43,263 nucleotides of DNA from Nitrospirota bacterium. Lineage in GTDB: Bacteria > Nitrospirota > Nitrospiria > Nitrospirales > UBA8639. Under the pieces are notes generated by a model, which saw only the letters and a list, made by a program, of their open reading frames with translations, made no database searches and was not told the DNA's origin. Location: NCBI GenBank assembly GCA_027623995.1, contig JAQBUF010000025.1, positions 1-43,263 on the forward strand, in the 5' to 3' direction. Numbering within the stretch: position 1 is the first letter of the stretch; every line of letters starts with the position of its first letter. Below, one piece after another: positions 29,226 to 43,263 of the stretch. A program made the position numbers and the translations under genes.

Positions 29226-30389
29226 ATGCATATCACACGACGTTCGACCAAGTCTATTCAAGTGGGTTCCGTCAAAATTGGTGGTGGTGCCCCCATTTCT
29301 GTTCAATCCATGACGATTCCGCATCCCCGTGATGTGAAGGGGACCGTTGAGCAAATCCATCAACTCGAACAAGCCGGCTGTGAATTGATTCGAGTGGCCG
29401 TTCCAGATGATGACGCGGCAAATGCTCTCCCGTTAATAAAAGCTCAAATTTCCATTCCACTTATTGCAGATATTCACTTTGACCATCGATTGGCCTTAAA
29501 AGCAGCCAAGGTCGTAGATTGTGTGCGAATCAATCCTGGAAATATTGGACCCTGGTGGAAGATGGCTGAAGTGCTGAAGGCCTTGACTGATAATGGCATT
29601 CCACTTCGTGTGGGCGTGAACGGGGGATCCCTGGAGCGCCCCCTTCTTGAAAAGTATGGATACCCGACGGCGCAAGCATTAGCCGAGTCTGCGCTTAATG
29701 CCGTTCATGCCATTGAAGATGCTGGGTTCACAAATATGAAGGTGTCGTTAAAGGCCTCTGATGTGCATATGGCTGTTGATGCCTATTGGCTATTTTCTCA
29801 CCAATCTGATTATCCGTTGCACATTGGGATCACCGAGGCCGGTACCGCTATGACAGGTGCTGTGAAATCTTCGGTTGGTCTTGGATGGCTGCTCTCTCAG
29901 GGGATTGGAGATACGCTGAGGGTGTCGCTGGCCGCAGATCCTGTGGAAGAGGTGAGGGTTGGCTTTGAAATTCTCAAGTCCCTGGAATTACGGCATCGTG
30001 GTGTGAATGTGATTGCCTGTCCAACTTGTGGTCGAGTGGAAATTGATGTGGTTCGCATGGCGAATGAATTAGAAAAACGCTTGGGGCATATCACTAAGCC
30101 TCTCAATGTGTCCGTGCTCGGGTGTGTTGTGAATGGTATTGGAGAAGGCAAGGAAGCTGATATTGGAATTGCTGGGGGCCAGGGAATGGGCATTCTGTTC
30201 AAAAAAGGAAAGCTCGTCAAAAAGGTGCCAGCTGAAGAGCTTATCGATCGGTTAATAGAAGAAGTGGAAATCATGGCCAACGAAACAGAGGAGGAAACTT
30301 CAGCCTCTGTCGCTTCCTTACCTGATTGTGAAGAGATGCTATCTTTTTCTAATGCTCATCGAGAGATTCCTGTGTTGCCTAACCGATAG
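29226..30389 (+). CDS. ispG: 4-hydroxy-3-methylbut-2-enyl diphosphate synthase (IspG/GcpE)
   Basis: A 387-residue iron-sulfur enzyme of the penultimate MEP step. The N-terminal TIM-barrel part reads RSTKSIQVGSVKIGGGAPISVQSM, typical of IspG. The 4Fe-4S ligands are C265 and C268 (A-C-P-T-C-G-R) and C300 (V-L-G-C-V-V-N-G), with the conserved E307 as fourth ligand. The short two-domain bacterial form is about 350-380 residues; here the last roughly 30 residues form a polar tail rich in E, T and S after LIDRLIEEVE. It is co-oriented with dxs and probably in the same operon. Confidence 0.97.
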   Translation: MHITRRSTKSIQVGSVKIGGGAPISVQSMTIPHPRDVKGTVEQIHQLEQAGCELIRVAVPDDDAANALPLIKAQISIPLIADIHFDHRLALKAAKVVDCVRINPGNIGPWWKMAEVLKALTDNGIPLRVGVNGGSLERPLLEKYGYPTAQALAESALNAVHAIEDAGFTNMKVSLKASDVHMAVDAYWLFSHQSDYPLHIGITEAGTAMTGAVKSSVGLGWLLSQGIGDTLRVSLAADPVEEVRVGFEILKSLELRHRGVNVIACPTCGRVEIDVVRMANELEKRLGHITKPLNVSVLGCVVNGIGEGKEADIGIAGGQGMGILFKKGKLVKKVPAEELIDRLIEEVEIMANETEEETSASVASLPDCEEMLSFSNAHREIPVLPNR

Positions 30390-30567: not shown

Positions 30568-30649
30568 TTTTTTTCGGATTACGCTTGATGTCCGGTTTAT
30601 TCTTAAAAATAGCCGACTCTCGTTCATTGTTTCTTAAGAGGTGAATTCA

Positions 30650-31666
30650 ATGGCTGTCCCTATATCACAGATGTTTACAGTTTCGAGTTATGTAATCGCC
30701 CAAAAACTCAAGAGGGTGAAGCGGTACCCGTTGGTGTTGATGTTGGAGCCGATCTTTCGTTGCAACTTGGCATGTGCAGGATGTGGGAAAATCCAATATC
30801 CAGATCATGTTTTAGATAAACGGCTCACGCCTGAGCAATGTTGGGCAGCTTCAGATGAATGTGGGGCACCCATTGTGAGTATCCCCGGAGGGGAGCCTCT
30901 CATTCATCCTGAAATGGCGGAGATCGTCCGAGGATTGGTCGAACGAAAAAAATATGTTTATCTGTGCACTAACGCGGTTTTGCTGGAACGAAAAATCGAA
31001 GAATACCAGCCATCAAAATACCTGACCTTTAGCATCCACATGGATGGACTTCGCGATGAGCATGATCTCGCGGTGTGTCGAGATGGAGTCTATGATGTGG
31101 CCGTGAAGGCCATTAAAACAGCCCTTAAAAAAGGGTTCCGCGTGACCACAAATACGACGCTCTTTGACGATGCCAATACTGACCGAGTCCGGTCCTTTTT
31201 TGATGAGATGATGGGGCTTGGAGTGGAAGGTATGATGATTTCGCCTGGGTATAGTTACGATAAGGCTCCAGATCAAAATAGTTTTCTGAAACGTCATCGA
31301 ACTCAGGAATTATTTTCTAAGCTTCTTTCTAATCGGAAACGGAACTGGCAGTTTAATCAGTCGCCGCTGTTCTTGGAATTTTTGATGGGAAAGCGAGATT
31401 ATGAGTGTACCCCCTGGGGCAATCCAACCTACAATGTGTTTGGCTGGCAGAAGCCTTGTTATTTATTACAAGATGGCTATGTTTCTGATTTTGCTACCTT
31501 GCTGAATGAGACCGAATGGGATAGCTACGGCACTGGACGCAATGAAAAATGTAAGGATTGTATGGTCCATTGTGGATACGAGGCCACTGCTGTTGAAGAT
31601 ACATTTAGTTCGTGGTCTGGTTTCGCGGGGACAGTAAAAGCGACACTTTTCCCTAATGCGACGTAA
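30650..31666 (+). CDS. hpnH: Hopanoid biosynthesis radical SAM protein HpnH
   Basis: A 338-residue radical SAM enzyme that joins the 5'-deoxyadenosyl group to diploptene, giving adenosylhopane, the step before HpnG. The cluster motif C38-N-L-A-C42-A-G-C45 follows LVLMLEPIFR. The rest is highly typical: IPGGEPLIHPEM, FSIHMDGLRDEHD, MMISPGYSYDKAPDQ, NPTYNVFGWQKPCYLLQDGY (split) and the C-terminal cysteine set C-K-D-C-M-V-H-C-G-Y-E. The start is ATG 30650; a GTG three codons earlier lies inside the ribosome binding site AAGAGGTG. Confidence 0.97.
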   Translation: MAVPISQMFTVSSYVIAQKLKRVKRYPLVLMLEPIFRCNLACAGCGKIQYPDHVLDKRLTPEQCWAASDECGAPIVSIPGGEPLIHPEMAEIVRGLVERKKYVYLCTNAVLLERKIEEYQPSKYLTFSIHMDGLRDEHDLAVCRDGVYDVAVKAIKTALKKGFRVTTNTTLFDDANTDRVRSFFDEMMGLGVEGMMISPGYSYDKAPDQNSFLKRHRTQELFSKLLSNRKRNWQFNQSPLFLEFLMGKRDYECTPWGNPTYNVFGWQKPCYLLQDGYVSDFATLLNETEWDSYGTGRNEKCKDCMVHCGYEATAVEDTFSSWSGFAGTVKATLFPNAT

Positions 31667-32740: not shown

Positions 32741-33304
32741 ATGAGCAAAGGCGCAAACCAAAAAATGATCCGATTGATAACTGTCGCAGCTATAGGGTTG
32801 GGGCTTTCAGCTTGTGGTGAAGAGAAGCCTCTTATGCCACCACCACCACCACCACCAGAATATGCCGACAAGCACATGCCTGATGGGTATTGGGGTAATC
32901 CAGATGTCCTTGAAGAAGGAAAAGCGATTTTTACTGGAGCGCAAAATATTGATGTGAATTGTGCCAGTTGCCATGGAAAAGATGGAAAGCCGGTTAAGGC
33001 GGGAGCGCGTGATTTCCGTCAGGGTGAGCACATGGCAAAGTTTTCAGACGCCCAATGGTTCTGGCGCATATCCGAAGGCATCAAGGGAACAAAAATGAAA
33101 GCCTGGAAGAGCAAGCTTTCAGAAGAGGCAATCTGGAAAGTGATTGTCTTTGAGGCGTCGTTTGGGTTGCCGGGGCAGGAATATAGTGTCGCCGAAAAGA
33201 AATGGGTCCCTGCTGGCACGGCCAAGTCTGCCGAGGAGGTTGCCAGTGAGCCTGTAAAAGGTGAAGCAACGGAAGAAGCTCCAACTGAAGAAGCTCCGAA
33301 GTAG
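32741..33304 (+). CDS. Mono-heme cytochrome c lipoprotein
   Basis: A 187-residue exported protein. The signal segment IRLITVAAIGLGLSAC ends in a lipobox with C25 as the lipidated residue. Then come a run of seven prolines (encoded by seven CCA triplets, 32837-32857) and one class I heme site, C74-A-S-C77-H78, in VNCASCHGKDGKPVKAG. A methionine in GTKMKAWKSKLSEEAIW could be the sixth ligand. The C-terminal 40 residues are Glu/Ala/Pro-rich. It probably shuttles electrons at the outer face of the inner membrane for the complex encoded downstream. The start is the ATG at 32741, with a G-rich ribosome binding site. Confidence 0.88.
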   Translation: MSKGANQKMIRLITVAAIGLGLSACGEEKPLMPPPPPPPEYADKHMPDGYWGNPDVLEEGKAIFTGAQNIDVNCASCHGKDGKPVKAGARDFRQGEHMAKFSDAQWFWRISEGIKGTKMKAWKSKLSEEAIWKVIVFEASFGLPGQEYSVAEKKWVPAGTAKSAEEVASEPVKGEATEEAPTEEAPK

Positions 33305-33340
33305 CACGCGGCAATTAAATATATTTTTGTCTCATTAAAA

Positions 33341-33348
33341 AAGGAGGG
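33341..33348 (+). promoter_or_regulatory. Ribosome binding site fixing a TTG start
   Basis: AAGGAGGG lies 9 bp before TTG at 33358. No ATG is found at suitable distance, and the TTG opens directly into a signal-like sequence (MKTLTRSLFIF). Confidence 0.85.
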
Positions 33349-33357
33349 CCACGACCC

Positions 33358-35073
33358 TTGAAAACCTTAACCCGCAGTCTTTTTATATTTCTAGGACTTG
33401 TGATTGGTGGTGGGGCTATTGCCTATGCGCAGGTTCCACCTGCTCCCCTTGTGGAGTTTCCTTATACAGGAAATAGGACAGCGGTGTGGATCGTGGCGCA
33501 GCTTCACATTTTGTTTGCGGCCTTTATCCTTGGGGCTCCTATCTTTGCGGTGGTGTCTGAATGGCTAGGATATAAAAACCAGGATCCGAAGTATGACCGC
33601 CTGGCGAAAGAGGTCACGAAGGTCACGGTTATTCTTTATAGTATGACCGCGTTGACCGGTGGTCTCTTTATTTTTGTGTTGTTGGCAGCCTATCCTGATT
33701 TCACCACGTGGCTTATTTCACATTTCTTCGTGATTTTCGCTATCGTCTATCCTCTCCTGTTTATTCTTGAAACCTTCATTCTGTACACATACTTTTACTC
33801 CTGGGACTCCATGAAGGGACCGCAGAAAGCTCGACATATTGCTCTTGGGGTTCTTTTAAATATCGTGGGGACCGTGACCTTATTTGCCATCGACGGACCA
33901 ACTTCATTTATGAATACCCCGGCAAAAGCCGTTGAGGGGCTTTCATTAGTCGAATATATCCAGACGGCCGGACTCTGGGACAAAATGGCTAACTTTAGTT
34001 GGATGCCTTTAAATCTCCACCGAATGGTTGGCAATGTCACATTTGGAGGATTTATCGCAGGCCTCATTGCGGCATATATGTATATGGGAGCCAAGACGGA
34101 TGAAGATCGCTCCTATTATGATTGGATGGGGTTTGTGGGAAATATGATCGGTGTGGGAGCACTTTTGTTTCTTCCTTTCATGGGGTATCTCTTGGCTTAC
34201 GAACTCTGTGATTATGACGCCTCCATCTGCCCATATATGATGGCTGATCAGCTCTCCATGTTCTTCGAAATGCAAGGAGCCATGGTTGGGTTAATATTTT
34301 TAGCCAGTAACTATTATATCTGGCTCAGTATGAAACGGATTCAGGGCGTAGAAAAGGTCCGTATGTCTGGAATGGTCATGATTGCCGTTCTGCTGATCCC
34401 TGCTGTGATGGGAGTGGCATGGAAAATGTTCCCACCGCCGGAGTGGCAATCATTATTATTCTTAGCGGCATTAGTGTTTTTACCTCCCATATTAAGTCGG
34501 CTTCCTGGCCTTCGGTTTACCGTGTCGGCGTTCACAATGATTAAGGTTGGGTTTTTGATGATTGTTGTGGCCGATGCCATATGGATGACACCCCATGGAT
34601 TTGTGGCTACTCAAGCGATGGCTACAGAGCATAACGAATTGCCGTCATGGGCCAGTGAGTTGGCCCTCATGCCGGCCAAAAACGCCGCCGCGTTTACCTT
34701 GGTATTTCTCACGATTGTGAATTACATCTTATATAACCGAGCCATCCGGCAAGGAACCATTATCTGGGGGAAAATAGATTTTGCTTCCCAGTTTGTGTTG
34801 ATCTTTTTGGCCTTTAGCGCCATTTGGACCATGGGCCTCATGGGTACCGTGCGGTCGCTCACACGAAAATATTTCCATGTCTATAATTTGGTGCCTGATT
34901 TTACGCCAGAGGCGTTTACGCCGACCCTCTCGTATTCTGCATGGTGGATTACTGGGGTGACGATTGTATTTTTTGCCGTCGTCAGTTTTTCCATCATGGT
35001 GACGTTGAGGCCTGGTAGTGGGCAAAAGGCTGATGCTCCTCAAGGGATTCCGGTTCCTGCCGGAGGCAAATAG
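33358..35073 (+). CDS. Cytochrome bd subunit I-like protein (CydA-like 1)
   Basis: A 571-residue polytopic protein starting at TTG. An N-terminal segment (LTRSLFIFLGLVIGGGAIAYA) looks like a cleavable signal or an extra helix. The core resembles CydA: H50 in W-I-V-A-Q-L-H-I-L-F-A-A (heme b595 ligand position), E138 in F-I-L-E-T-F-I-L...S-W-D, H221 in L-N-L-H-R-M-V-G-N (heme b558 ligand position), and a methionine in MQGAMVGLIFLASNYYIW. The quinol-loop motif GRQPW of true CydA is not found; the place reads W-M-T-P-H-G-F. No CydB is nearby. CydA-like proteins of this sort are discussed as possible terminal oxidase components in Nitrospira. Paralogue of the gene at 38947. Confidence 0.85.
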   Translation: MKTLTRSLFIFLGLVIGGGAIAYAQVPPAPLVEFPYTGNRTAVWIVAQLHILFAAFILGAPIFAVVSEWLGYKNQDPKYDRLAKEVTKVTVILYSMTALTGGLFIFVLLAAYPDFTTWLISHFFVIFAIVYPLLFILETFILYTYFYSWDSMKGPQKARHIALGVLLNIVGTVTLFAIDGPTSFMNTPAKAVEGLSLVEYIQTAGLWDKMANFSWMPLNLHRMVGNVTFGGFIAGLIAAYMYMGAKTDEDRSYYDWMGFVGNMIGVGALLFLPFMGYLLAYELCDYDASICPYMMADQLSMFFEMQGAMVGLIFLASNYYIWLSMKRIQGVEKVRMSGMVMIAVLLIPAVMGVAWKMFPPPEWQSLLFLAALVFLPPILSRLPGLRFTVSAFTMIKVGFLMIVVADAIWMTPHGFVATQAMATEHNELPSWASELALMPAKNAAAFTLVFLTIVNYILYNRAIRQGTIIWGKIDFASQFVLIFLAFSAIWTMGLMGTVRSLTRKYFHVYNLVPDFTPEAFTPTLSYSAWWITGVTIVFFAVVSFSIMVTLRPGSGQKADAPQGIPVPAGGK

Positions 35074-35094
35074 TAATTCTGGAGAAAGAAAACA

Positions 35095-35901
35095 ATGGCT
35101 GAGCAAAGTTTGACTCGGAACATTATGAAAAAAGGCGTGATTGGTGTTGTCGTAGGGATCATTTTGGTGGTCGCGGCGCGGGCTACTCATTTCCCTGAAG
35201 TTTTCCAGTTCATGTTCTTTCTGTATGCAATGTTGGGAGCGCTGGTCTTTATTTTATTAGATGCTCCAACCATGCCACGCCTTGAAGGTGCAAAGGCGGT
35301 CATCGGGTTGATCATATTTTATGCGGTCCTGTCAGGGGCCTACATTGGTGGAGCGAGTATCTTGCCCCAGTATGACCCTGAGGATGAAAAAGGGAAAATT
35401 GACAAAGTTCTGAAAATGCGAAAAGCCATGAGCGAGCAGGGTAAAGCCGAAGAGTTGATAGCTCGAGCTAAAGAGTTGAACGACCGAGCGGCTTCGATTG
35501 AAAAGCAATTGCAATCGCTTGGTGGTGGTGCGGTGGTGGTGGATGATGCGGCTGGTTCGTCTTCTGGCGCAGCCTCAGGTGATTTGGTCGCTCTTGGAAA
35601 AGAGCAGTGGGAGTTGCAGGAATGTTACAACTGTCACAAACTCTTTGGCCAAGGTGGCAAAAAACGCGGCCCAATATTAGACAATATTGGAAACCTTATG
35701 AAACCCGAAGAGCTTCGTGAAAAGATTTTAGATCCGAAGAGCTGGAAGGCGGAGGGTTTTGACAAGCAATACGAAAAAGGCAAAATGCCTGACAAGTACA
35801 AAGATTTGATGTTCAAGGCAGAAGTTGATGCCCTCGTGGCTTTTCTTGCGACGTTGAAAGATGCCTCGGTCAATACGCCGAAGCCAATCAAGATGAAATA
35901 A
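35095..35901 (+). CDS. Membrane-anchored cytochrome c
   Basis: A 268-residue protein with membrane segments at about 13-28, 36-56 and 66-88, a charged coiled-coil-like stretch (about 95-142), a Gly/Ser/Ala linker, and a C-terminal cytochrome c domain with one heme site C177-Y-N-C180-H181 (LQECYNCHKLFGQGGKKRGPILDNIG). A methionine in KGKMPDKYKDLMF is a likely axial ligand. The layout suggests the cytochrome c subunit of a bc-type complex, between CydA-like 1 and the Rieske gene; gaps are 21 and 24 bp. It may play the part of cytochrome c1. Confidence 0.88.
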   Translation: MAEQSLTRNIMKKGVIGVVVGIILVVAARATHFPEVFQFMFFLYAMLGALVFILLDAPTMPRLEGAKAVIGLIIFYAVLSGAYIGGASILPQYDPEDEKGKIDKVLKMRKAMSEQGKAEELIARAKELNDRAASIEKQLQSLGGGAVVVDDAAGSSSGAASGDLVALGKEQWELQECYNCHKLFGQGGKKRGPILDNIGNLMKPEELREKILDPKSWKAEGFDKQYEKGKMPDKYKDLMFKAEVDALVAFLATLKDASVNTPKPIKMK

Positions 35902-35925
35902 AATTCATAAGGTTTTTATCATCGT

Positions 35926-36870
35926 ATGCAACCAAAACTAGCAGCCAAAGCACGGTGTTCTGACGGAGAAGTTGGGAAGATTTCTAAGGTTATTGTTGAC
36001 CCCATTTCTCACGAAATCAGTCATGTGGTCGTGAGCGAGTACGGCGGTCAGCGAATGGATCGGCAAGTTCCGATTGGTCAGGTCCAAGAAGTTCCTAATG
36101 AAGAAGAAATTGTCCTGCGGTGCTCATCGTCGGAGTTTGGGCAATTTCCCGTATTGGACCGTGATTGCTACGTCACGATACACGATTGTGAAATAGCTCA
36201 CCTCGAAGACAATTTGCATGTGGAGCCTGGGGAAGTTCTCGTTCCCTACCCAAGGCTTGAGCACGGCGTTCCCCGACGAAACTTTTTCGCCAATATGACC
36301 CATGCGATCGGTGCTTTAATTGCTTTGCCATTCGCATTTCCCGTGCTGAAATATATCATGAAGCCAATGTACCAGCCCTATGATAATTCATGGTTCGGCG
36401 TGGGCAATGTTCAGAAAATTCAAAAAGAAAATATTGGCTACCAGTTTAAGTTTACTCGGGGATTCAAGGAAGCGTTTATGCCCGAGCAGCAAGTAGAAAA
36501 AAATATTTGGATAGTAAAGGCGACGGAGGGAGTCCGGAAAGCCGTCTATGATGGAAAAGACAAAAAGTTCTACGACAATAAAGGGGATGTCGTATGGGTG
36601 AATAAAGCCAATAACCCGTTTATTGGTTTTTCTGGGAAATGTCCACATTTAGGGTGTGGATATAAATGGCGAAAAACAAAGAACTTCCCGGATGGTGTGT
36701 TTCTGTGTCCCTGTCATCTGAGTATTTATGATGAAGCCGGGAGAGTGGTGGATGGTCCAGCGCCCAGGGCCTTGGATGTCTTGCCGATGGAAGTGAATGC
36801 GGCTGGAGAAGTCAGAATCATTGATATTGAATATAAAGCCGGTGTCAAAAACCAAATTCGACTCACTTAA
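35926..36870 (+). CDS. Rieske iron-sulfur protein with N-terminal PRC-barrel-like domain
   Basis: A 314-residue protein. Residues about 1-80 (ARCSDGEVGKISKVIVDPIS, then HVVVSEYGGQRMDRQVPIGQV) look like a PRC-barrel, normally a cytoplasmic or chaperone-like domain. A membrane helix (ALIALPFAFPVLKYIMKP, about 130-147) follows. The Rieske domain is C-terminal, with C239-P-H241-L-G-C244 and C261-P-C263-H264, giving two Cys and two His ligands of the 2Fe-2S cluster plus the usual disulfide pair. It should accept electrons from quinol at the Qo site of the cytochrome b next door. Ordinary Rieske proteins of about 180 residues lack the front domain. Confidence 0.9.
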   Translation: MQPKLAAKARCSDGEVGKISKVIVDPISHEISHVVVSEYGGQRMDRQVPIGQVQEVPNEEEIVLRCSSSEFGQFPVLDRDCYVTIHDCEIAHLEDNLHVEPGEVLVPYPRLEHGVPRRNFFANMTHAIGALIALPFAFPVLKYIMKPMYQPYDNSWFGVGNVQKIQKENIGYQFKFTRGFKEAFMPEQQVEKNIWIVKATEGVRKAVYDGKDKKFYDNKGDVVWVNKANNPFIGFSGKCPHLGCGYKWRKTKNFPDGVFLCPCHLSIYDEAGRVVDGPAPRALDVLPMEVNAAGEVRIIDIEYKAGVKNQIRLT

Positions 36871-36894
36871 CTTGTATACTTCATTAAGGGTTTC

Positions 36895-38007
36895 ATGAAC
36901 GGCCAAGATAATTCAGGCAACGAATCAAATGTGTTTGAAAAAGTCGTGGACTTTGTCGACGAGCGAGTTGGTTTAAAAACCATTCAAGCTAAAATGCTCA
37001 ATGAGCCTGTCCCTGGTGGCTCTCGTTGGGCTTATGCATTTGGCTCGGTTCTGCTTTTCATTTTTATCTTGCAGGTCGTCACGGGCATCTTGTTGATGTT
37101 TTATTATGTGCCCAGTACGGACCATGCGTACGCCAGTACTCAATACATTATCCATGAAGTGGATTACGGATGGTTCCTACTGAGCTATCATTTCTGGGGA
37201 TCATCAGCCATGGTGGTGATGGTCTTTGCCCATATGTCTCAGGTATTTCTTTGGGGAGCCTATAAGAAGCCGCGTGAATTGGTGTGGTTGGTGGGGCTCG
37301 CCCTCTTTGGGATAGTCATGGCGTTTGGGTTTACTGGATATCTTCTCCCTTGGGACCAAAGAGCCTTCTGGGCCACGGTGGTGGGCGTCGAAATTATGGA
37401 CAAATCCCCTCTCATTGGGGATTTTATGGCTCGATTTTTAAAGGGTGGACCCACCCCAGGCCAAATGACTATCAGTAGATTTTTTGTGATCCACGTGATG
37501 GTACTTCCAGCCGCGTTGATGGGTTTAGCTGGTCTCCATATCTTTTTATTCCGTAAGGCAGGACCTGCAGGACCATTCAGGGGCACCCCTGAAGAACTCA
37601 AAGCCAAAACGGACTATTTTTTCCCAAGGCAGATCTGGAAAGATATCGTGGCAATGGCCACAGTATTCTTGATTATTTGCAGTTTGGCCTTTTTTGAACC
37701 TGTGGTGTTGCTTGAAGAGGCCACTCCAGACCCTGGTGATTACCATCCAGAGCCAGAATGGTACTTTTTGTTCCTCTTCCAGCTACTGCGTCTTAAAATG
37801 TTTGGGGGGGAACTGGGGCAACTGATGGGAGCCATCGTTCTCCCTGGTGCATTTATGGCATTATTGGCAGCGCTACCATTTATTGATACAAGTCCAGAGC
37901 GAAATATTTTTAAACGTCCGGTGTCTTTGATTGCCTGGATTCTTGTGATGCTCATGATTTTGGTCTTTACTGTTTCGGCAATTATCAATAGAGATTTCCT
38001 GCACTAA
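36895..38007 (+). CDS. Cytochrome b, b6/subunit IV fused type
   Basis: A 370-residue polytopic cytochrome b. The heme histidine pairs are H99/H113 and H200/H215; the second pair has 14 residues between, as in cytochrome b6, while mitochondrial cytochrome b has 13. The b6-like half (GFTGYLLPWDQRAFWATVVG) is joined to a subunit IV-like half with the Qo motif P-E-W-Y (287-290) in DYHPEPEWYFLFLFQLLR. It catalyses quinol oxidation together with the Rieske protein. The hydrophilic N-terminus (1-40) resembles that of bacterial bc proteins (VGLKTIQAKMLNEPVPGG). It starts 24 bp after the Rieske gene. Confidence 0.95.
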   Translation: MNGQDNSGNESNVFEKVVDFVDERVGLKTIQAKMLNEPVPGGSRWAYAFGSVLLFIFILQVVTGILLMFYYVPSTDHAYASTQYIIHEVDYGWFLLSYHFWGSSAMVVMVFAHMSQVFLWGAYKKPRELVWLVGLALFGIVMAFGFTGYLLPWDQRAFWATVVGVEIMDKSPLIGDFMARFLKGGPTPGQMTISRFFVIHVMVLPAALMGLAGLHIFLFRKAGPAGPFRGTPEELKAKTDYFFPRQIWKDIVAMATVFLIICSLAFFEPVVLLEEATPDPGDYHPEPEWYFLFLFQLLRLKMFGGELGQLMGAIVLPGAFMALLAALPFIDTSPERNIFKRPVSLIAWILVMLMILVFTVSAIINRDFLH

Positions 38008-38013
38008 ACCGTT

Positions 38014-38874
38014 ATGTCAAATGTCAAACTAGGGCTACTTGTTTTTTGGCCTACTTTTTGGACTGGCTTTCCCATAAAAATGGTGATTGTCCTTCTCCTT
38101 TTGGCTGCCCATATTCATCCATGGGAAGGAATTGGTCTTGAGGCATTGTTGTTTCTTTCCATTCCTATCGACATTTGGGCGCTTGGTCTATGCGCACGGA
38201 CCGTTTTTCTTGAAAGACTGAGTATTGATTCACCAAAAGGCATGGGCCTTCGTTTATGGGCGCAATGGGCGCTTTTTTCCGCTATCTATCTTCCTCTTTT
38301 ATATTTTGTCGTAGGCGGCGCGAAAGCCCTTGCCAAATCGGCGACCCACGCGACAGTCCAATTTGTGGAAGAAAGTTTCATGGTCATTCCCGTTGCGGAA
38401 AAAATTACCATTGAGTTGCTCATGTGGGCGACGCCGACAACGCTCGTCCTGATTGCCATGCTGTATGGATGGATGTTTGGTCTAGGCACCTTGGCTCAAC
38501 GACAGGTTCGTGCCTCAACGGCAGTTAATGGTTCTTTCCAGGACATTGTGTATCAATGGGATGCCATCCGAATTCCCAAAGACCAACCGCTGCTATTAAC
38601 TGCCTTTATGGGAGCCGGAGTGGTGGTGGTTTTCCTGTTTTGGAATTTGATCCCAGTGAGCACTCATCATCCACATGAAGAATACCAATTCATTGATATT
38701 AAAAAAGTTGAAAAGAAAATTGTTCCTAAAGAGGCCATCAAAACTGCGGAGAATGTTTTGGCTCGTGCGGAAGCCACAATAAAGGAGTTAGAAAAAGAGA
38801 ACTCTGGAGTTGAGAAACCTAAGAACGATAAAGCCCAGGCGGGCAAGGAAGAATCAAAACCTTCACCCAAATAA
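38014..38874 (+). CDS. Unknown membrane protein of the respiratory operon
   Basis: A 286-residue protein that I do not recognise, 6 bp after the cytochrome b stop. About five membrane segments are visible (roughly 5-33, 41-62, 80-104, 132-158 and 193-212), then a hydrophilic tail with helix-forming charged text (KKVEKKIVPKEAIKTAENVL, ATIKELEKENSG) and a Lys/Glu/Pro-rich end. No heme c site is present. Several histidines lie near membrane borders (AAHIHPWEG at 31-39, STHHPHEEY at 217-224), which could bind metal or heme. Its fixed place between cytochrome b and CydA-like 2 suggests a subunit or assembly factor of the same complex. Confidence 0.8.
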   Translation: MSNVKLGLLVFWPTFWTGFPIKMVIVLLLLAAHIHPWEGIGLEALLFLSIPIDIWALGLCARTVFLERLSIDSPKGMGLRLWAQWALFSAIYLPLLYFVVGGAKALAKSATHATVQFVEESFMVIPVAEKITIELLMWATPTTLVLIAMLYGWMFGLGTLAQRQVRASTAVNGSFQDIVYQWDAIRIPKDQPLLLTAFMGAGVVVVFLFWNLIPVSTHHPHEEYQFIDIKKVEKKIVPKEAIKTAENVLARAEATIKELEKENSGVEKPKNDKAQAGKEESKPSPK

Positions 38875-38946
38875 GTTCAGCTATAATGACCATCGAGAAC
38901 TTGATCTTTACCAGCTAATAGGTGACACATCGATGAGGGACCACAC

Positions 38947-40824
38947 ATGAAAAGCCGAGGCACAGTAGAAAACCTTCAGTCATGGTTGCCAAAGGTGAAA
39001 CATTCATCCCTCTCCGGATGGAGTGTCTTTTGGGTTTTGCTCCTTCTCCCAGCGTTCGTCTGGGCTCAAGATGCTGCAACGCAAGCGATGTCTGTCGAGT
39101 ACCGCGATATTCCATGGATTGGAAGCCGGAACCTTGTGTGGATCGTGGCCCAACAACATTTACTGTTAGCGGGCTTTGTGCTTGGAGTGCCAATCTTTGC
39201 TTGGATTTGTGAAATTGTTGGATGGAGATCAAAAGAACCTCGCTATGACAAACTGGCAAAAGAATTTACAAAACTCCTGACATCGGCCTATGCGACCACT
39301 GCCTTGTTTGGAGGGATTCTTCTCTTTCTCTTGATTGGCCTCTACCCAAAATTGATGGCCTATTTGTCAGATGTCTTTTTCCCTTCGTTTATTGCCTACT
39401 GCATTTTGTTCCTTCTTGAGACCGCCACACTCTACATTTATTGGTACGGGTGGGATGCTTTGCAGGGAAACAAGAAGGGCCTACATATATTTTTGGGGTT
39501 TCTCCTGAATTTATTTGCTCTCGGGATCATGATTGTTCCCAATAGTTGGGCCACGTTCCAAGCTAGTCCTGTGGTGCTTGGGGACGGAACGGCCATCGAA
39601 AGAGCTTGGACAGCCATGCAAAATCCAACATGGTGGCCGGTAAATATCCATCGTCTCATCGCTAATGTGGTGTTGGGGGGATTCATTTGTGGTGCGTATG
39701 CTGGTGTCCGATACCTTCTTGCTCAAACGAAGGAGGAAAAAGACCATTATGATTGGATGGGTTATGTCGGAAACTTCATCGGCGTGTTTGGCATGCTTCC
39801 ACTTCCCTTTGCTGGATACTGGCTCATGCGGGAGGTGTATCAATATAACCAACAGATGGGTATTACCCTCATGGGAGGGTTCTTGGCTTGGCTCTTTATC
39901 TTGCAGGCCATGCTCATAGGTGTCCTCTTCCTTGGGGCCAATTATTATTTCTGGATGGGAATTGCCTATCGAATCCCCGGCTCAGCGCAAAGCTATAAAC
40001 GCCCCATTCTCGCGATGTTGGTCGTGCTCATGGTGTGTCTTGGTGTGTGGATGACCCCGCATTCGTTGGTAGCGAGCTTGGCTGAGGCTCAACTCATGGG
40101 GGGAACTCATCACCCACTTCTTGGGGTGTTTGGCGTGATGTCTGCCAAGATGACCGTCTCGAACCTTATGATATTGGTCACCTTCATGAGTTTCATTATG
40201 TATTGGCGGGCCGGTAAACAGGAGACGGCAGCCTGGGCCAAAGTCGCCAAAGCCGTCATGGGTGCATTACTGGCTATTGGTGGCATAGCGGTTGTTGTGC
40301 TTGGTGTGTGGGGGTACTTCGTTCCAGCCATTATTCGGATTAATTATTTCTCCGTCGCCCAGGTGCTCATCGTCTTGTTTATCATGGTCACGTTTACACC
40401 GTTGACGGCATTGCTCATGAAGAGTGCCAAAACGACCACTGAAATGGTCTGGGGCCAAATGCCAATTCGTGCTGGCTATGCCTTGGTATTAAACGCGGTC
40501 ATGGTGATCCTGTTGATGTCCCTCATGGGATATGCCCGATCATCCTCTCGTGTGCATTGGCATATATATGGCGTGATGAGAGATACATCTGAATATGCAT
40601 ACTCTCCTGCATTAGGGTATGCCGCGGCATTTATGTCACTGAATACCTTTCTCTTCTGTTTACTCGTGTCGTTCATCTTCTGGGTAGCGACAATGGGGGA
40701 TAAGGTCAAAAAAGGACCTGAACAGGGTCAAGCCGCAGAGGACCCAACAAAGATTTCTGGTGGAGTCACTCCTGCAATGGCAGGTGGCGCACCACGAGTG
40801 GGTGAAGAGACTTTAAAAATATAG
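38947..40824 (+). CDS. Cytochrome bd subunit I-like protein (CydA-like 2)
   Basis: A 625-residue polytopic protein with GAGGGA before the ATG. It is a paralogue of CydA-like 1: NLVWIVAQQHLLLAGFVLGV matches TAVWIVAQLHILFAAFILGA, and K-x-P-R-Y-D-K-L-A-K-E-F-T-K is shared. It also has a hydrophobic signal-like N-terminus (VFWVLLLLPAFVWA). Putative ligands are H71, E158 (L-L-E-T-A-T-L-Y), H235 (V-N-I-H-R-L-I-A-N) and a methionine in LQAMLIGVLFLGANYYFW. The GRQPW quinol loop is again absent (G-V-W-M-T-P-H-S). The protein has additional membrane segments towards the C-terminus (about 12-14 in total) and a polar tail. A terminal oxidase or electron-transfer role is inferred. Confidence 0.85.
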   Translation: MKSRGTVENLQSWLPKVKHSSLSGWSVFWVLLLLPAFVWAQDAATQAMSVEYRDIPWIGSRNLVWIVAQQHLLLAGFVLGVPIFAWICEIVGWRSKEPRYDKLAKEFTKLLTSAYATTALFGGILLFLLIGLYPKLMAYLSDVFFPSFIAYCILFLLETATLYIYWYGWDALQGNKKGLHIFLGFLLNLFALGIMIVPNSWATFQASPVVLGDGTAIERAWTAMQNPTWWPVNIHRLIANVVLGGFICGAYAGVRYLLAQTKEEKDHYDWMGYVGNFIGVFGMLPLPFAGYWLMREVYQYNQQMGITLMGGFLAWLFILQAMLIGVLFLGANYYFWMGIAYRIPGSAQSYKRPILAMLVVLMVCLGVWMTPHSLVASLAEAQLMGGTHHPLLGVFGVMSAKMTVSNLMILVTFMSFIMYWRAGKQETAAWAKVAKAVMGALLAIGGIAVVVLGVWGYFVPAIIRINYFSVAQVLIVLFIMVTFTPLTALLMKSAKTTTEMVWGQMPIRAGYALVLNAVMVILLMSLMGYARSSSRVHWHIYGVMRDTSEYAYSPALGYAAAFMSLNTFLFCLLVSFIFWVATMGDKVKKGPEQGQAAEDPTKISGGVTPAMAGGAPRVGEETLKI

Positions 40825-40891
40825 GGCACGAATTCGCCCCGTAACTCGGTAAAATGGTGTTTTTGAATTTACCTAACCTGAGCGAGGACAT

Positions 40892-41512
40892 ATGAGCGAA
40901 GTTGCGTTACTCCAATTAATTGGTCTCATCGTCGTAGGACTTGGGGTCTTCATACTGCTCTTCATCAAAGGAAAATTCCTCAGGGTTGTTGGGTTTGTCA
41001 TCATTGTCCTTGGGGGCTTTAGTTTAATTGCCTTGAGTGTCCCTCAAATGGCGTCATTGCCACCTGCTATCGAAACCTTCGATATCACCAAAGTCAAAAC
41101 GGCTGATGATTTGGCATCCATTGGGCAAAAGATTTTCTTTAGTAAAGGCCAATGTGCCTTATGTCACTCCATTGGTCCAAGTGAATCATCGAGGTGTCCT
41201 GATTTAAATGGAATTGGAGCGAAACTTGCTCCAGAGTTTATCTATGAAAGTCTGACGCAGCCTCAAGCGTATATCTATTTGGACTTCCGGCATGGTGGTG
41301 TACCTGAGGAATATCCAGCCCGGATGCCATATATTAATAAGAACCCGATTGCCTTGTCTGAGCAAGAGATTTATTCAGTCATTGCGTTCCTCCAAAAAAT
41401 GAGCGGCGAACCCATCAGTATCAAAGTCGAGGATGTTCTTCGTGAGAGTGGAGGGGGAGAGATGAAGGTCGCGTCCGTAGCAGTTCATGGAACATCCTCA
41501 ACGAATGACTAA
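40892..41512 (+). CDS. Membrane-anchored mono-heme cytochrome c
   Basis: A 206-residue protein with two N-terminal membrane helices (about 4-26 and 31-50) and one heme site, C88-A-L-C91-H92, in FSKGQCALCHSIGPSESSRCPDLNG. A methionine in YPARMPYINKNPIALSEQE is the likely axial ligand; the spacing is normal for a class I cytochrome c. The C-terminal 35 residues are variable. It lies between CydA-like 2 (67-bp gap) and another cytochrome c (55-bp gap). GAGCGAGGA precedes the start. Confidence 0.9.
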   Translation: MSEVALLQLIGLIVVGLGVFILLFIKGKFLRVVGFVIIVLGGFSLIALSVPQMASLPPAIETFDITKVKTADDLASIGQKIFFSKGQCALCHSIGPSESSRCPDLNGIGAKLAPEFIYESLTQPQAYIYLDFRHGGVPEEYPARMPYINKNPIALSEQEIYSVIAFLQKMSGEPISIKVEDVLRESGGGEMKVASVAVHGTSSTND

Positions 41513-41567
41513 TGGTTTCTGGTCATCGATATTGCTGTTATTGAATTTTCACCCTGGAGCCTGACAT

Positions 41568-42299
41568 ATGAAAAACCCTCTTGCTAAAGCTGGAATTTTG
41601 TTGGTGGGAATGTATGTGTTTCTCAAGTTCATTCTCCCCCAATTTACAGCACCTCTTCCAGCAAGTTTAATTTTCTTATATTTGGCTCTGACATTTGCTG
41701 CTTCGACGATTTTCTTTACCATGAGTGGAGCGGGTCTTGAGGATTTCATGGGACCTGTTGGACGGTTTCTTACGGGAGAAGGCCAATCCGGCATTGCCGG
41801 AACCGCGCGGATTTTGGTCTTTTTGGTATTTCCCTTACTGGTCGGTTGGCAAACCTATACGAAATTGGCCCCAAGTGACGCGCCCCCAGCAGAAAACCGA
41901 ACTATTCATCCAGCACCTCCTGGAGAATTTGTTGGACTGGCTAACCCTTTTCCTAAAACACAGGATAATATTATGATGGGGAAAGGGCTCTATGCCGCAT
42001 TTTGTTCTCCGTGCCATGGGGCAAATTTTGATGGGAAGGGTCCGGCAGCACCGGGATTTAATCCGCCTCCGGCAAATTTTAGTGATCCGGGGACCATTGC
42101 TCAGTTGCAAGAGGCCTATTTATTTTGGCGAATAAAAAAAGGTGGTGTGGGTCTTCCTATCGAAGGCATGCCATGGAAGTCAGCCATGCCGAGATGGGAA
42201 TTCGAATTGCCAGACGATTGGATTTGGAAAATTATCATGGGTGAATATGATGGTGCCCACCAATCCCCGCGAACGTGGGAAGAAGAGGAAGAGGAATAG
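41568..42299 (+). CDS. Membrane-anchored mono-heme cytochrome c with poly-glutamate tail
   Basis: A 243-residue protein with membrane segments at about 8-24, 32-52 and 80-97, then a periplasmic cytochrome c domain: C146-S-P-C149-H150 in LYAAFCSPCHGANFDGKG, followed by W-R-I-K-K-G and a methionine-containing GMPWKSAMPRWEFELPDDWIWKII typical of the cytochrome c family used in respiratory complexes. It ends in T-W and six glutamates. The last gene of the cytochrome group before the NxrC-like gene, 50 bp away. Confidence 0.9.
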   Translation: MKNPLAKAGILLVGMYVFLKFILPQFTAPLPASLIFLYLALTFAASTIFFTMSGAGLEDFMGPVGRFLTGEGQSGIAGTARILVFLVFPLLVGWQTYTKLAPSDAPPAENRTIHPAPPGEFVGLANPFPKTQDNIMMGKGLYAAFCSPCHGANFDGKGPAAPGFNPPPANFSDPGTIAQLQEAYLFWRIKKGGVGLPIEGMPWKSAMPRWEFELPDDWIWKIIMGEYDGAHQSPRTWEEEEEE

Positions 42300-42336
42300 G
42301 AGTGCTGAACAAAAATAGACAGGTTGTACAGCATCC

Positions 42337-42342
42337 AAGGAG
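42337..42342 (+). promoter_or_regulatory. Ribosome binding site deciding the start of the NxrC-like gene
   Basis: AAGGAG (42337-42342) lies 7 bp before ATG 42350 and only 1 bp before ATG 42344, so the second ATG is preferred. The open frame also extends back into the preceding gene. Confidence 0.7.
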
Positions 42343-42349
42343 CATGAAC

Positions 42350-43186
42350 ATGAGACGTGAAAGATTTCTTGGTGTCGCATTAGGAACTTTCCTCATCGCG
42401 ATAGGGCTTGGTGCTTCTTGGAGTGTTGCAAGTGACCAGCCGCCTGAAGGCAAAATTGCCAGTGTGGCGGTTCGTTTATATTTGACGGAAGGTTCTTTGC
42501 CTACCGATGATCCTAATGCTGCTTCGTGGAATGCCATCCAACCATCAGAATTTAACCTAGCTCCCCAAGTGCATTGGCCAGATCGGATTCAAGAGGTCAC
42601 TGTCAAAACGGTTAAAGTTCGTGGCATGCACAATGGCCAGGATCTCGCTGTTATGGTGGAATATGAAGATCCGACTGAAAGTCCAGCCGATGCTGCTGCG
42701 CTAGAATTTATGGTGGGGGACCAAAAAGCCCATTTTGCCCATGGGCAAGAGATGATTCAAGTCGAAGGTGGCCCAGTTAATATTTGGTATTGGAAAAAAG
42801 CAGATGGTAAAGGCACGGATATGAGTGCGAAAGGTTTTAAAACGATTCGAGCTCAAGATCAGCAAGATGTCTCGGCCACTGGCGTCTGGCAGGGAGGGAC
42901 GTGGCGTGTTGTGTTTTCTCGACCATTAGCTACTGGGGATGAACACGATGTCCAAATCACTCCTGGTGAATGGCGGAGCATCGCGTTTGCATTTTGGGAT
43001 GGTGAATTAGTGGATGGCGAGGCGAGGGAAAAAGGGTCTCAAAAAGCTGTCTCATCCTGGTGGTCTGTTCGAGCTGAACCCACGCCAGACAATTCTATGT
43101 ACGGATATGTGGTGCTGGGTATTGCGATTGCTGCCGGCTTTGAATTTTTCTTGGTCAGAAAAATACGGAGAGGGAACCACGCATGA
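42350..43186 (+). CDS. NxrC-like heme-binding gamma-type subunit, membrane-anchored
   Basis: A 278-residue exported protein. It has a signal peptide (RFLGVALGTFLIAIGLGASWSVAS), then a domain resembling the heme b-binding gamma subunits of ethylbenzene dehydrogenase and related DMSO reductase family enzymes, including candidate NxrC of Nitrospira: VAVRLYLTEGSLPTDDPNAA-like start, W-P-D-R-I-Q-E-V-T-V-K-T-V-K-V-R, EYEDPTESPADAAALEFM, WRVVFSRPLATGDE and IAFAFWDGELVDG. A C-terminal helix (YGYVVLGIAIAAGFEFFLV) anchors it, unlike soluble gamma subunits. It probably carries one heme b with Met/Lys ligands, but I cannot fix the residues. No nxrA or nxrB is in the window. Confidence 0.75.
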   Translation: MRRERFLGVALGTFLIAIGLGASWSVASDQPPEGKIASVAVRLYLTEGSLPTDDPNAASWNAIQPSEFNLAPQVHWPDRIQEVTVKTVKVRGMHNGQDLAVMVEYEDPTESPADAAALEFMVGDQKAHFAHGQEMIQVEGGPVNIWYWKKADGKGTDMSAKGFKTIRAQDQQDVSATGVWQGGTWRVVFSRPLATGDEHDVQITPGEWRSIAFAFWDGELVDGEAREKGSQKAVSSWWSVRAEPTPDNSMYGYVVLGIAIAAGFEFFLVRKIRRGNHA

Positions 43187-43200
43187 AGGGGGAACGAGGC

Positions 43201-43263
43201 ATGCATCGGGTATTGATCAAGGTTGCAATTGGTGTGGTGGCGATATTTGCCGTCACAAGCGGT
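43201..43263 (+). CDS. Start of a further exported or membrane protein (partial)
   Basis: The frame opens at ATG 43183, which overlaps the stop of the NxrC-like gene (ATGA), and again at ATG 43201, which has AAGGGGGA at better spacing and is preferred. The visible product MHRVLIKVAIGVVAIFAVTSG is a basic start plus hydrophobic stretch, as in a signal peptide or membrane anchor. It is cut by the window end, so no family can be named. Tight spacing makes it part of the respiratory operon. Confidence 0.65.
   Translation, partial: MHRVLIKVAIGVVAIFAVTSG

Follow-up and report, generated by a model that had tools for sequence, protein, structure and literature searches.

A Nitrospira moscoviensis gene cluster that carries CIII_1, bd-like_1, bd-like_2 and alt_nxrC_1 was described by Mundinger et al. 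2019 (PMC6606698). In that account, transcription of the region is strong on nitrite, and its products were proposed to form a III+IV supercomplex that possibly interacts with nitrite oxidoreductase (NXR). PMC12342949 and PMC10839748, citing Murali 2021, place the bd-like pair as OR-N1/OR-N2, with the NIDE0901-type protein as the OR-N2 that is paired with OR-N1 in Nitrospirales, and suggest a cytochrome c-fed CydAA' oxidase. Here we analyze such a cluster in another Nitrospirales genome. The window is the entire contig JAQBUF010000025.1 (43263 bases) of a Nitrospirota bacterium, and positions 32741-43186 hold ten plus-strand genes. They encode, in order, cytochrome c1, the CydA-like protein bdA, cytochrome c2, a Rieske protein, cytochrome b, an orphan membrane protein (X286), a second CydA-like protein (bdB), cytochromes c3 and c4, and an NxrC-like protein (Table 1).

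The operon is already known: publications cover the gene cluster and its nitrite-grown transcription, the proposals of a supercomplex and of a link to NXR, and the OR-N1/OR-N2 assignment. The N. moscoviensis cluster has the same parts as the window, down to the pair of c-type cytochromes that separates bd-like_2 from alt_nxrC_1, and nothing essential differs. The excerpts consulted from that account do not single out the 286-residue orphan protein or the conserved terminal diheme cytochrome c. Our apparent additions are the recognition of these two as conserved parts, the residue counts, the elimination of other oxidases in closed genomes, and modules that stand apart beside molybdoenzymes.

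In the reading that we favor, at a probability of roughly 0.6, this operon specifies the part of the Nitrospirales respiratory chain that connects quinone, cytochrome c and oxygen, with a CydB-less, cytochrome c-fed oxidase of the bd family. NXR in the periplasm would pass electrons from nitrite to the membrane-anchored cytochromes c, probably via the NxrC-like protein. The cytochromes would in turn feed an oxidase that consists of bdB (OR-N2) and, probably, bdA (OR-N1), perhaps as a heterodimer, and that would reduce O2, probably at hemes of the b type. Quinone would be connected to this cytochrome c pool through the Rieske/cytochrome b unit, in which electron flow would be reversed while nitrite is oxidized and forward when H2, formate or similar compounds are the donors. 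This matches the proposals in PMC6606698, PMC12342949 and PMC10839748. A first-pass annotation of this DNA had considered the function of the combined cluster open. That holds insofar as we found no biochemical proof, but the cluster has been described and hypothesized upon since 2019 (PMC6606698), and the OR-N pair is treated in PMC12342949 and PMC10839748.

Gene content and conservation of order

The components that the first-pass annotation had recognized (two CydA-like paralogues, a Rieske protein, a cytochrome b fusion, four cytochromes c and an NxrC-like gene) are all present in their places and on their strand. Its list lacked the 286-residue membrane protein encoded at 38014-38874, which is included here. 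The further claim of a single operon with short gaps is borne out, as the genes are co-directional and stay together in relatives. A genome scan with bdB as query yielded 80 loci, and the ten genes recur in identical order and strand in 48 related loci, with median intergenic gaps across loci of 7-65 bp. Because order and strand of all ten genes are kept in 48 other loci, the cluster is beyond chance. In the remaining loci within the order Nitrospirales, the cluster is interrupted by contig ends, frameshift-like breaks or, once, a scaffold gap. An apparent split in one chromosome (L026, CP070743.1) was rejected, since both halves stop at runs of N in the scaffolded sequence.

The NxrC-like protein matches TIGR03477 (4.2e-29, under the model's own cut-off) and NXR subunit C (7b04_C, 9.1e-15), which confirms the gene that had been placed at the operon end. 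It is not the last one, however, as an 11th gene overlaps its stop at 43183. The window being an entire contig of 43263 bases, the operon is truncated at its 3' end, and the remainder of this gene has no match elsewhere in the same assembly. Among relatives, the slot after nxrC holds an open reading frame with heme c motifs in all 53 loci with enough sequence, and in 52 of the 53 it is diheme; the product, a diheme cytochrome c, is about 340-360 residues long.

The gene order extends beyond Nitrospirales. Two outside families (L097 and L098) keep nine or ten genes in the same order, with a short match to X286 in one family and none detected in the other. In some lineages beyond Nitrospirales, the bc genes are located away from the bdA-c2-c1 and bdB-c3-c4 parts, and Troglogloeales have bdB, c3 and c4 without adjoining bc genes. 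This dispersal favors an arrangement without a supercomplex, in which the bd-like oxidase stands as a complex apart from the bc unit and the two are encoded together only for co-regulation. Such an arrangement is compatible with the oxidase reading, and we rate it, as a non-exclusive alternative, somewhat short of even odds. Against it stand the interleaving of the ten genes, with bdA before the bc genes and bdB after them, their exact order in the 48 loci, and the persistence of nine or ten genes in order in the two outside families. A complex or supercomplex built from the operon products is plausible on this genomic evidence.

The CydA-like proteins

Both proteins keep the equivalents of Escherichia coli CydA residues H19, E107, H126 and H186 in the alignment. 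In bdA these are H50, E138, H160 and H221; the three histidines are present in 54/54 sequences and E138 in 52/54, counted over true bdA sequences with bdB sequences excluded. The bdB counterparts H71, E158, H180 and H235 are each at least 98% conserved. In E. coli bd-I, E107 has been proposed to act as the primary donor of protons, and K252 and E257 have earlier been implicated in the quinol site (PMC13189123). The latter two are lost from bdA and bdB, with K252 replaced by Gly and E257 by Ala or Gly. Related bd-like proteins have likewise lost their Q-loop and quinol residues (PMC3578206).

The predicted model of bdB (mean predicted local distance difference test score, pLDDT, 69.7) has the CydA fold. 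It aligns to ten solved CydA chains with Z scores of 20-23 over about 340 residues, among them 5doq_A (Z = 23.2 over 338 residues).

Phylogenetically, bdA (support 98/98) and bdB (100/99) form groups apart from E. coli CydA and from the canonical CydA of the source genome, in a tree whose canonical branches are long and whose sampling does not include Murali's reference set. The genome's own bd-like_3 and bd-like_4 proteins make up a separate branch (100/100). The tree was built without L098_bdB (wrong frame) and L030_bdA (a duplicate of bdB). The assignment of bdA and bdB to OR-N1 and OR-N2 follows from orthology, context and this small tree rather than from placement in Murali's own alignment. 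An orthologue of the window's bdB is present in Ca. N. defluvii (L052).

The bc unit and X286

Cytochrome b combines a b6-like N-terminus and a subunit IV-like C-terminus in a single chain, and it matches cytochrome b/b6 structures down to 1.9e-52. Its heme ligands H99/H113 and H200/H215 are conserved with b6-like spacing, and the PEWY motif is kept. No conserved cysteine of the kind that binds heme ci in b6f-type complexes occurs in cytochrome b. The Rieske cluster ligands (C239/H241/C244 and C261/C263/H264) are conserved as well. With these ligands, the four heme-b histidines and the PEWY quinol site in place, the bc unit appears intact. The Rieske protein also carries an unusual N-terminal extension (35926-36300) of about 125 residues ahead of its membrane helix, which resembles a PRC-barrel only weakly (E = 0.14, below cut-off).

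X286 has no Pfam match at E<=10 and no NCBIfam match. Across 36 sequences D53, W55, E129, D183, R186 and H221 are invariant. The AlphaFold model has a pLDDT of 79.7, and a fold search against the PDB returned no match at E<=0.001, which shows nothing firm. Some Nitrospira encode a longer version; outside the order, a short C-terminal part or nothing is detected. We regard X286 as a candidate conserved subunit.

Oxidases of the source and related genomes

The source genome is 99.7% complete and encodes a full-length NxrA (1145 residues; 7b04_B, E = 0). No protein in it, bdB included, matches the heme-copper oxidase family (COX1, PF00115), and its sole CydB adjoins a canonical CydA on another contig. 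The first-pass annotation was thus right that the cluster has neither CydB nor a copper oxidase subunit. We extended the inventory to 78 Nitrospirales genomes of at least 95% completeness, with CydB and COX1 as the families tested and E<1e-30 as the threshold for a strong COX1 match. In 33 of them, both CydB and a strong COX1 match are absent, and these include two single-contig genomes (G055 and G141). In G055, which has neither of these other oxidases, some 6 kb separate bdA from bdB. According to PMC6606698 and PMC12342949, Nitrospira either have no canonical heme-copper oxidases or have other oxidases as extras.

Nitrospira are major nitrite oxidizers and include complete ammonia oxidizers, yet our literature search brought up no biochemical work that demonstrates their terminal oxidase. 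Among candidates for that role this operon ranks first, and many genomes have no other from the families tested. The full list of conserved subunits, with X286 and the terminal diheme cytochrome c, tells what a purification should contain.

Alternative roles of bdA and bdB

Several points weigh against an oxidase. The heme ligands in E. coli bd are H19, E99, H186, M393 and E445. E99 is Tyr in both proteins (Y131 in bdA). For M393 and E445 no counterpart aligns in bdA or bdB, the C-terminal alignment being uncertain and the model loops there scoring below pLDDT 50; heme content is therefore not predictable. Our literature search returned no enzyme activity, purified complex or complexome-profiled oxidase from Nitrospira. 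Relatives of the bd-like proteins are reported from anammox bacteria (PMC6606698), which are termed strictly anaerobic (PMC3578206).

Finally, bdA- and bdB-like genes lie beside molybdoenzymes in Nitrospirota genomes that have COX1-family proteins. In one genome (G167:C43, L099 5687-13291), an OR-N1-like CydA with a fused diheme cytochrome c is encoded immediately next to alpha and beta genes of the type II DMSO-reductase kind. There are no bc genes and no OR-N2 partner nearby, and the whole genome has one PF01654 protein. In another (G012), a bdA relative with a fused diheme cytochrome c adjoins PhsA/TtrB-like genes. A third (G075:C8, L101 18-9123) has a co-directional run of a bdB-like CydA, c3 and c4, a TorD/NarJ-like protein and NXR-like alpha, beta and gamma subunits; the H19 equivalent of this bdB-like protein is Met. 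All three genomes contain COX1-family matches, so the bd-like module there need not be an oxidase. These modules keep a non-oxidase role alive.

In such a role, the CydA-like proteins would be heme-b electron-transfer modules that link periplasmic molybdoenzymes and cytochromes c with the membrane, either like alternative complex III (ACIII) or in reverse transport, and something else would reduce oxygen. The conservation of bd-like paralogues in anammox bacteria, the three molybdoenzyme loci and the missing canonical CydA residues all speak for it, and an ACIII-like role has been suggested for bd-like proteins, provided that they bind quinone (PMC3578206). It leaves the 33 near-complete Nitrospirales genomes with no other oxidase candidate from the two families tested, and the core residues are kept, the E107 equivalent among them. 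We consider this explanation unlikely. The two proteins could also divide the roles: bdB would reduce oxygen, while bdA, anchored on the bc unit, would act as a heme-b relay through which cytochrome c and quinone exchange electrons for reverse transport, with X286 as the connector. We hold this division of labor to be quite doubtful; if true, one interleaved assembly would divide nitrite electrons between oxygen and quinone.

The first-pass annotation had envisaged, as one of two options, a quinol-to-oxygen machine, and direct chemistry of that kind by the CydA-like proteins is unlikely because the quinol-loop residues are gone. That bdA and bdB oxidize quinol in the manner of canonical cytochrome bd, as their sequence and fold resemblance to CydA might suggest, is highly improbable, given that K252 and E257 are substituted in all four bd-like paralogues, that PMC3578206 reports the same loss, and that a bc unit with an intact quinol site is encoded in the same operon. 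Equally hard to credit is a heme-copper oxidase-type copper site in bdB, an idea that PMC6606698 attributes to Lucker et al. 2010, who raised it for bd-like_2, and that is favored by the extra invariant histidines H372, H388, H389, H537 and H539, which lie in two loops modeled with pLDDT <50: the whole-length fold is that of CydA, PF00115 is unmatched, and H372 and H539 also occur in bdA and H389 in the other bd-like paralogues.

Features of the window

Coordinates are collected in Table 1. Promoter and terminator scans gave signals only weakly above chance and were not used. Upstream of the operon and outside its bounds, we read from the sequence an IspG-like protein (29226-30389) and an HpnH-like radical SAM protein (30641-31666).

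Table 1. Genes of the operon on contig JAQBUF010000025.1
Gene	Position	Strand	Product and features
c1	32741..33304	+	Monoheme cytochrome c, 187 aa; lipoprotein-like N-terminus (LSAC); CxxCH at residue 74; first gene in 48 loci
bdA	33358..35073	+	CydA-like protein A, 571 aa; CxxCH absent; PF01654 3.4e-13; bd-like_1 / OR-N1
c2	35095..35901	+	Monoheme cytochrome c, 268 aa; N-terminal membrane helices; PF00034 1.3e-09; CxxCH at 177
Rieske [2Fe-2S] protein	35926..36870	+	314 aa; long N-terminal extension; PF00355 2.8e-08
cytochrome b	36895..38007	+	Single chain, 370 aa; PF00033 5.5e-49, PF00032 2.6e-09
X286	38014..38874	+	Orphan membrane protein, 286 aa; about 5 transmembrane helices; conserved PHPHE motif; between cytochrome b and bdB
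bdB	38947..40824	+	CydA-like protein B, 625 aa; PF01654 2.7e-20; bd-like_2 / NIDE0901-type OR-N2; proposed oxidase subunit
c3	40892..41512	+	Monoheme cytochrome c, membrane-anchored, 206 aa; PF00034 4.7e-07; CxxCH at 88
c4	41568..42299	+	Monoheme cytochrome c, membrane-anchored, 243 aa; PF13442 4.6e-07; CxxCH at 146
NxrC-like (EbdC-type gamma) protein	42350..43186	+	278 aa; C-terminal membrane helix; PF09459 1.7e-20; alt_nxrC_1
11th gene, 5' part	43183..43263	+	ATGA overlap with nxrC stop; encodes MKGERGMHRVLIKVAIGVVAIFAVTSG up to the contig end

Comparison with known systems

The OR-N1/OR-N2 CydAA' group of the cytochrome bd superfamily (Murali et al. 2021, as used in PMC12342949 and PMC10839748) is matched by the window pair, which likewise consists of CydA paralogues without CydB or a quinol site. 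The NXR-associated bd-like_3/bd-like_4 cluster of Nitrospira, Nitrospina and Kuenenia also joins an alternative NxrC and two cytochromes c to a CydA-like protein; unlike the window operon, it has no bc genes. The source genome has a locus of this type on another contig (C59, L006 1250-12999), with a second CydA-like pair, two cytochromes c and an alternative NxrC of larger size that bears two CxxCH motifs. Heme-copper oxidases differ in their COX1 family (PF00115), which the operon lacks.

With cytochromes bc1 and b6f, the window Rieske protein and cytochrome b share all ligands and the PEWY motif. The operon departs from both in having monoheme c proteins and no recognizable c1 or f, in the CydA-like genes on both sides and in the orphan membrane protein; compared with b6f, its cytochrome b is an unsplit chain and lacks the conserved cysteine. 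Canonical cytochrome bd (CydAB, qOR) has in common with bdA and bdB the N-terminal core of H19, E107, H126 and H186, and with the bdB model the CydA fold. In contrast to CydAB, the window proteins have no CydB and no quinol-loop residues, carry Tyr in place of E99, are longer, and are encoded next to cytochromes c.

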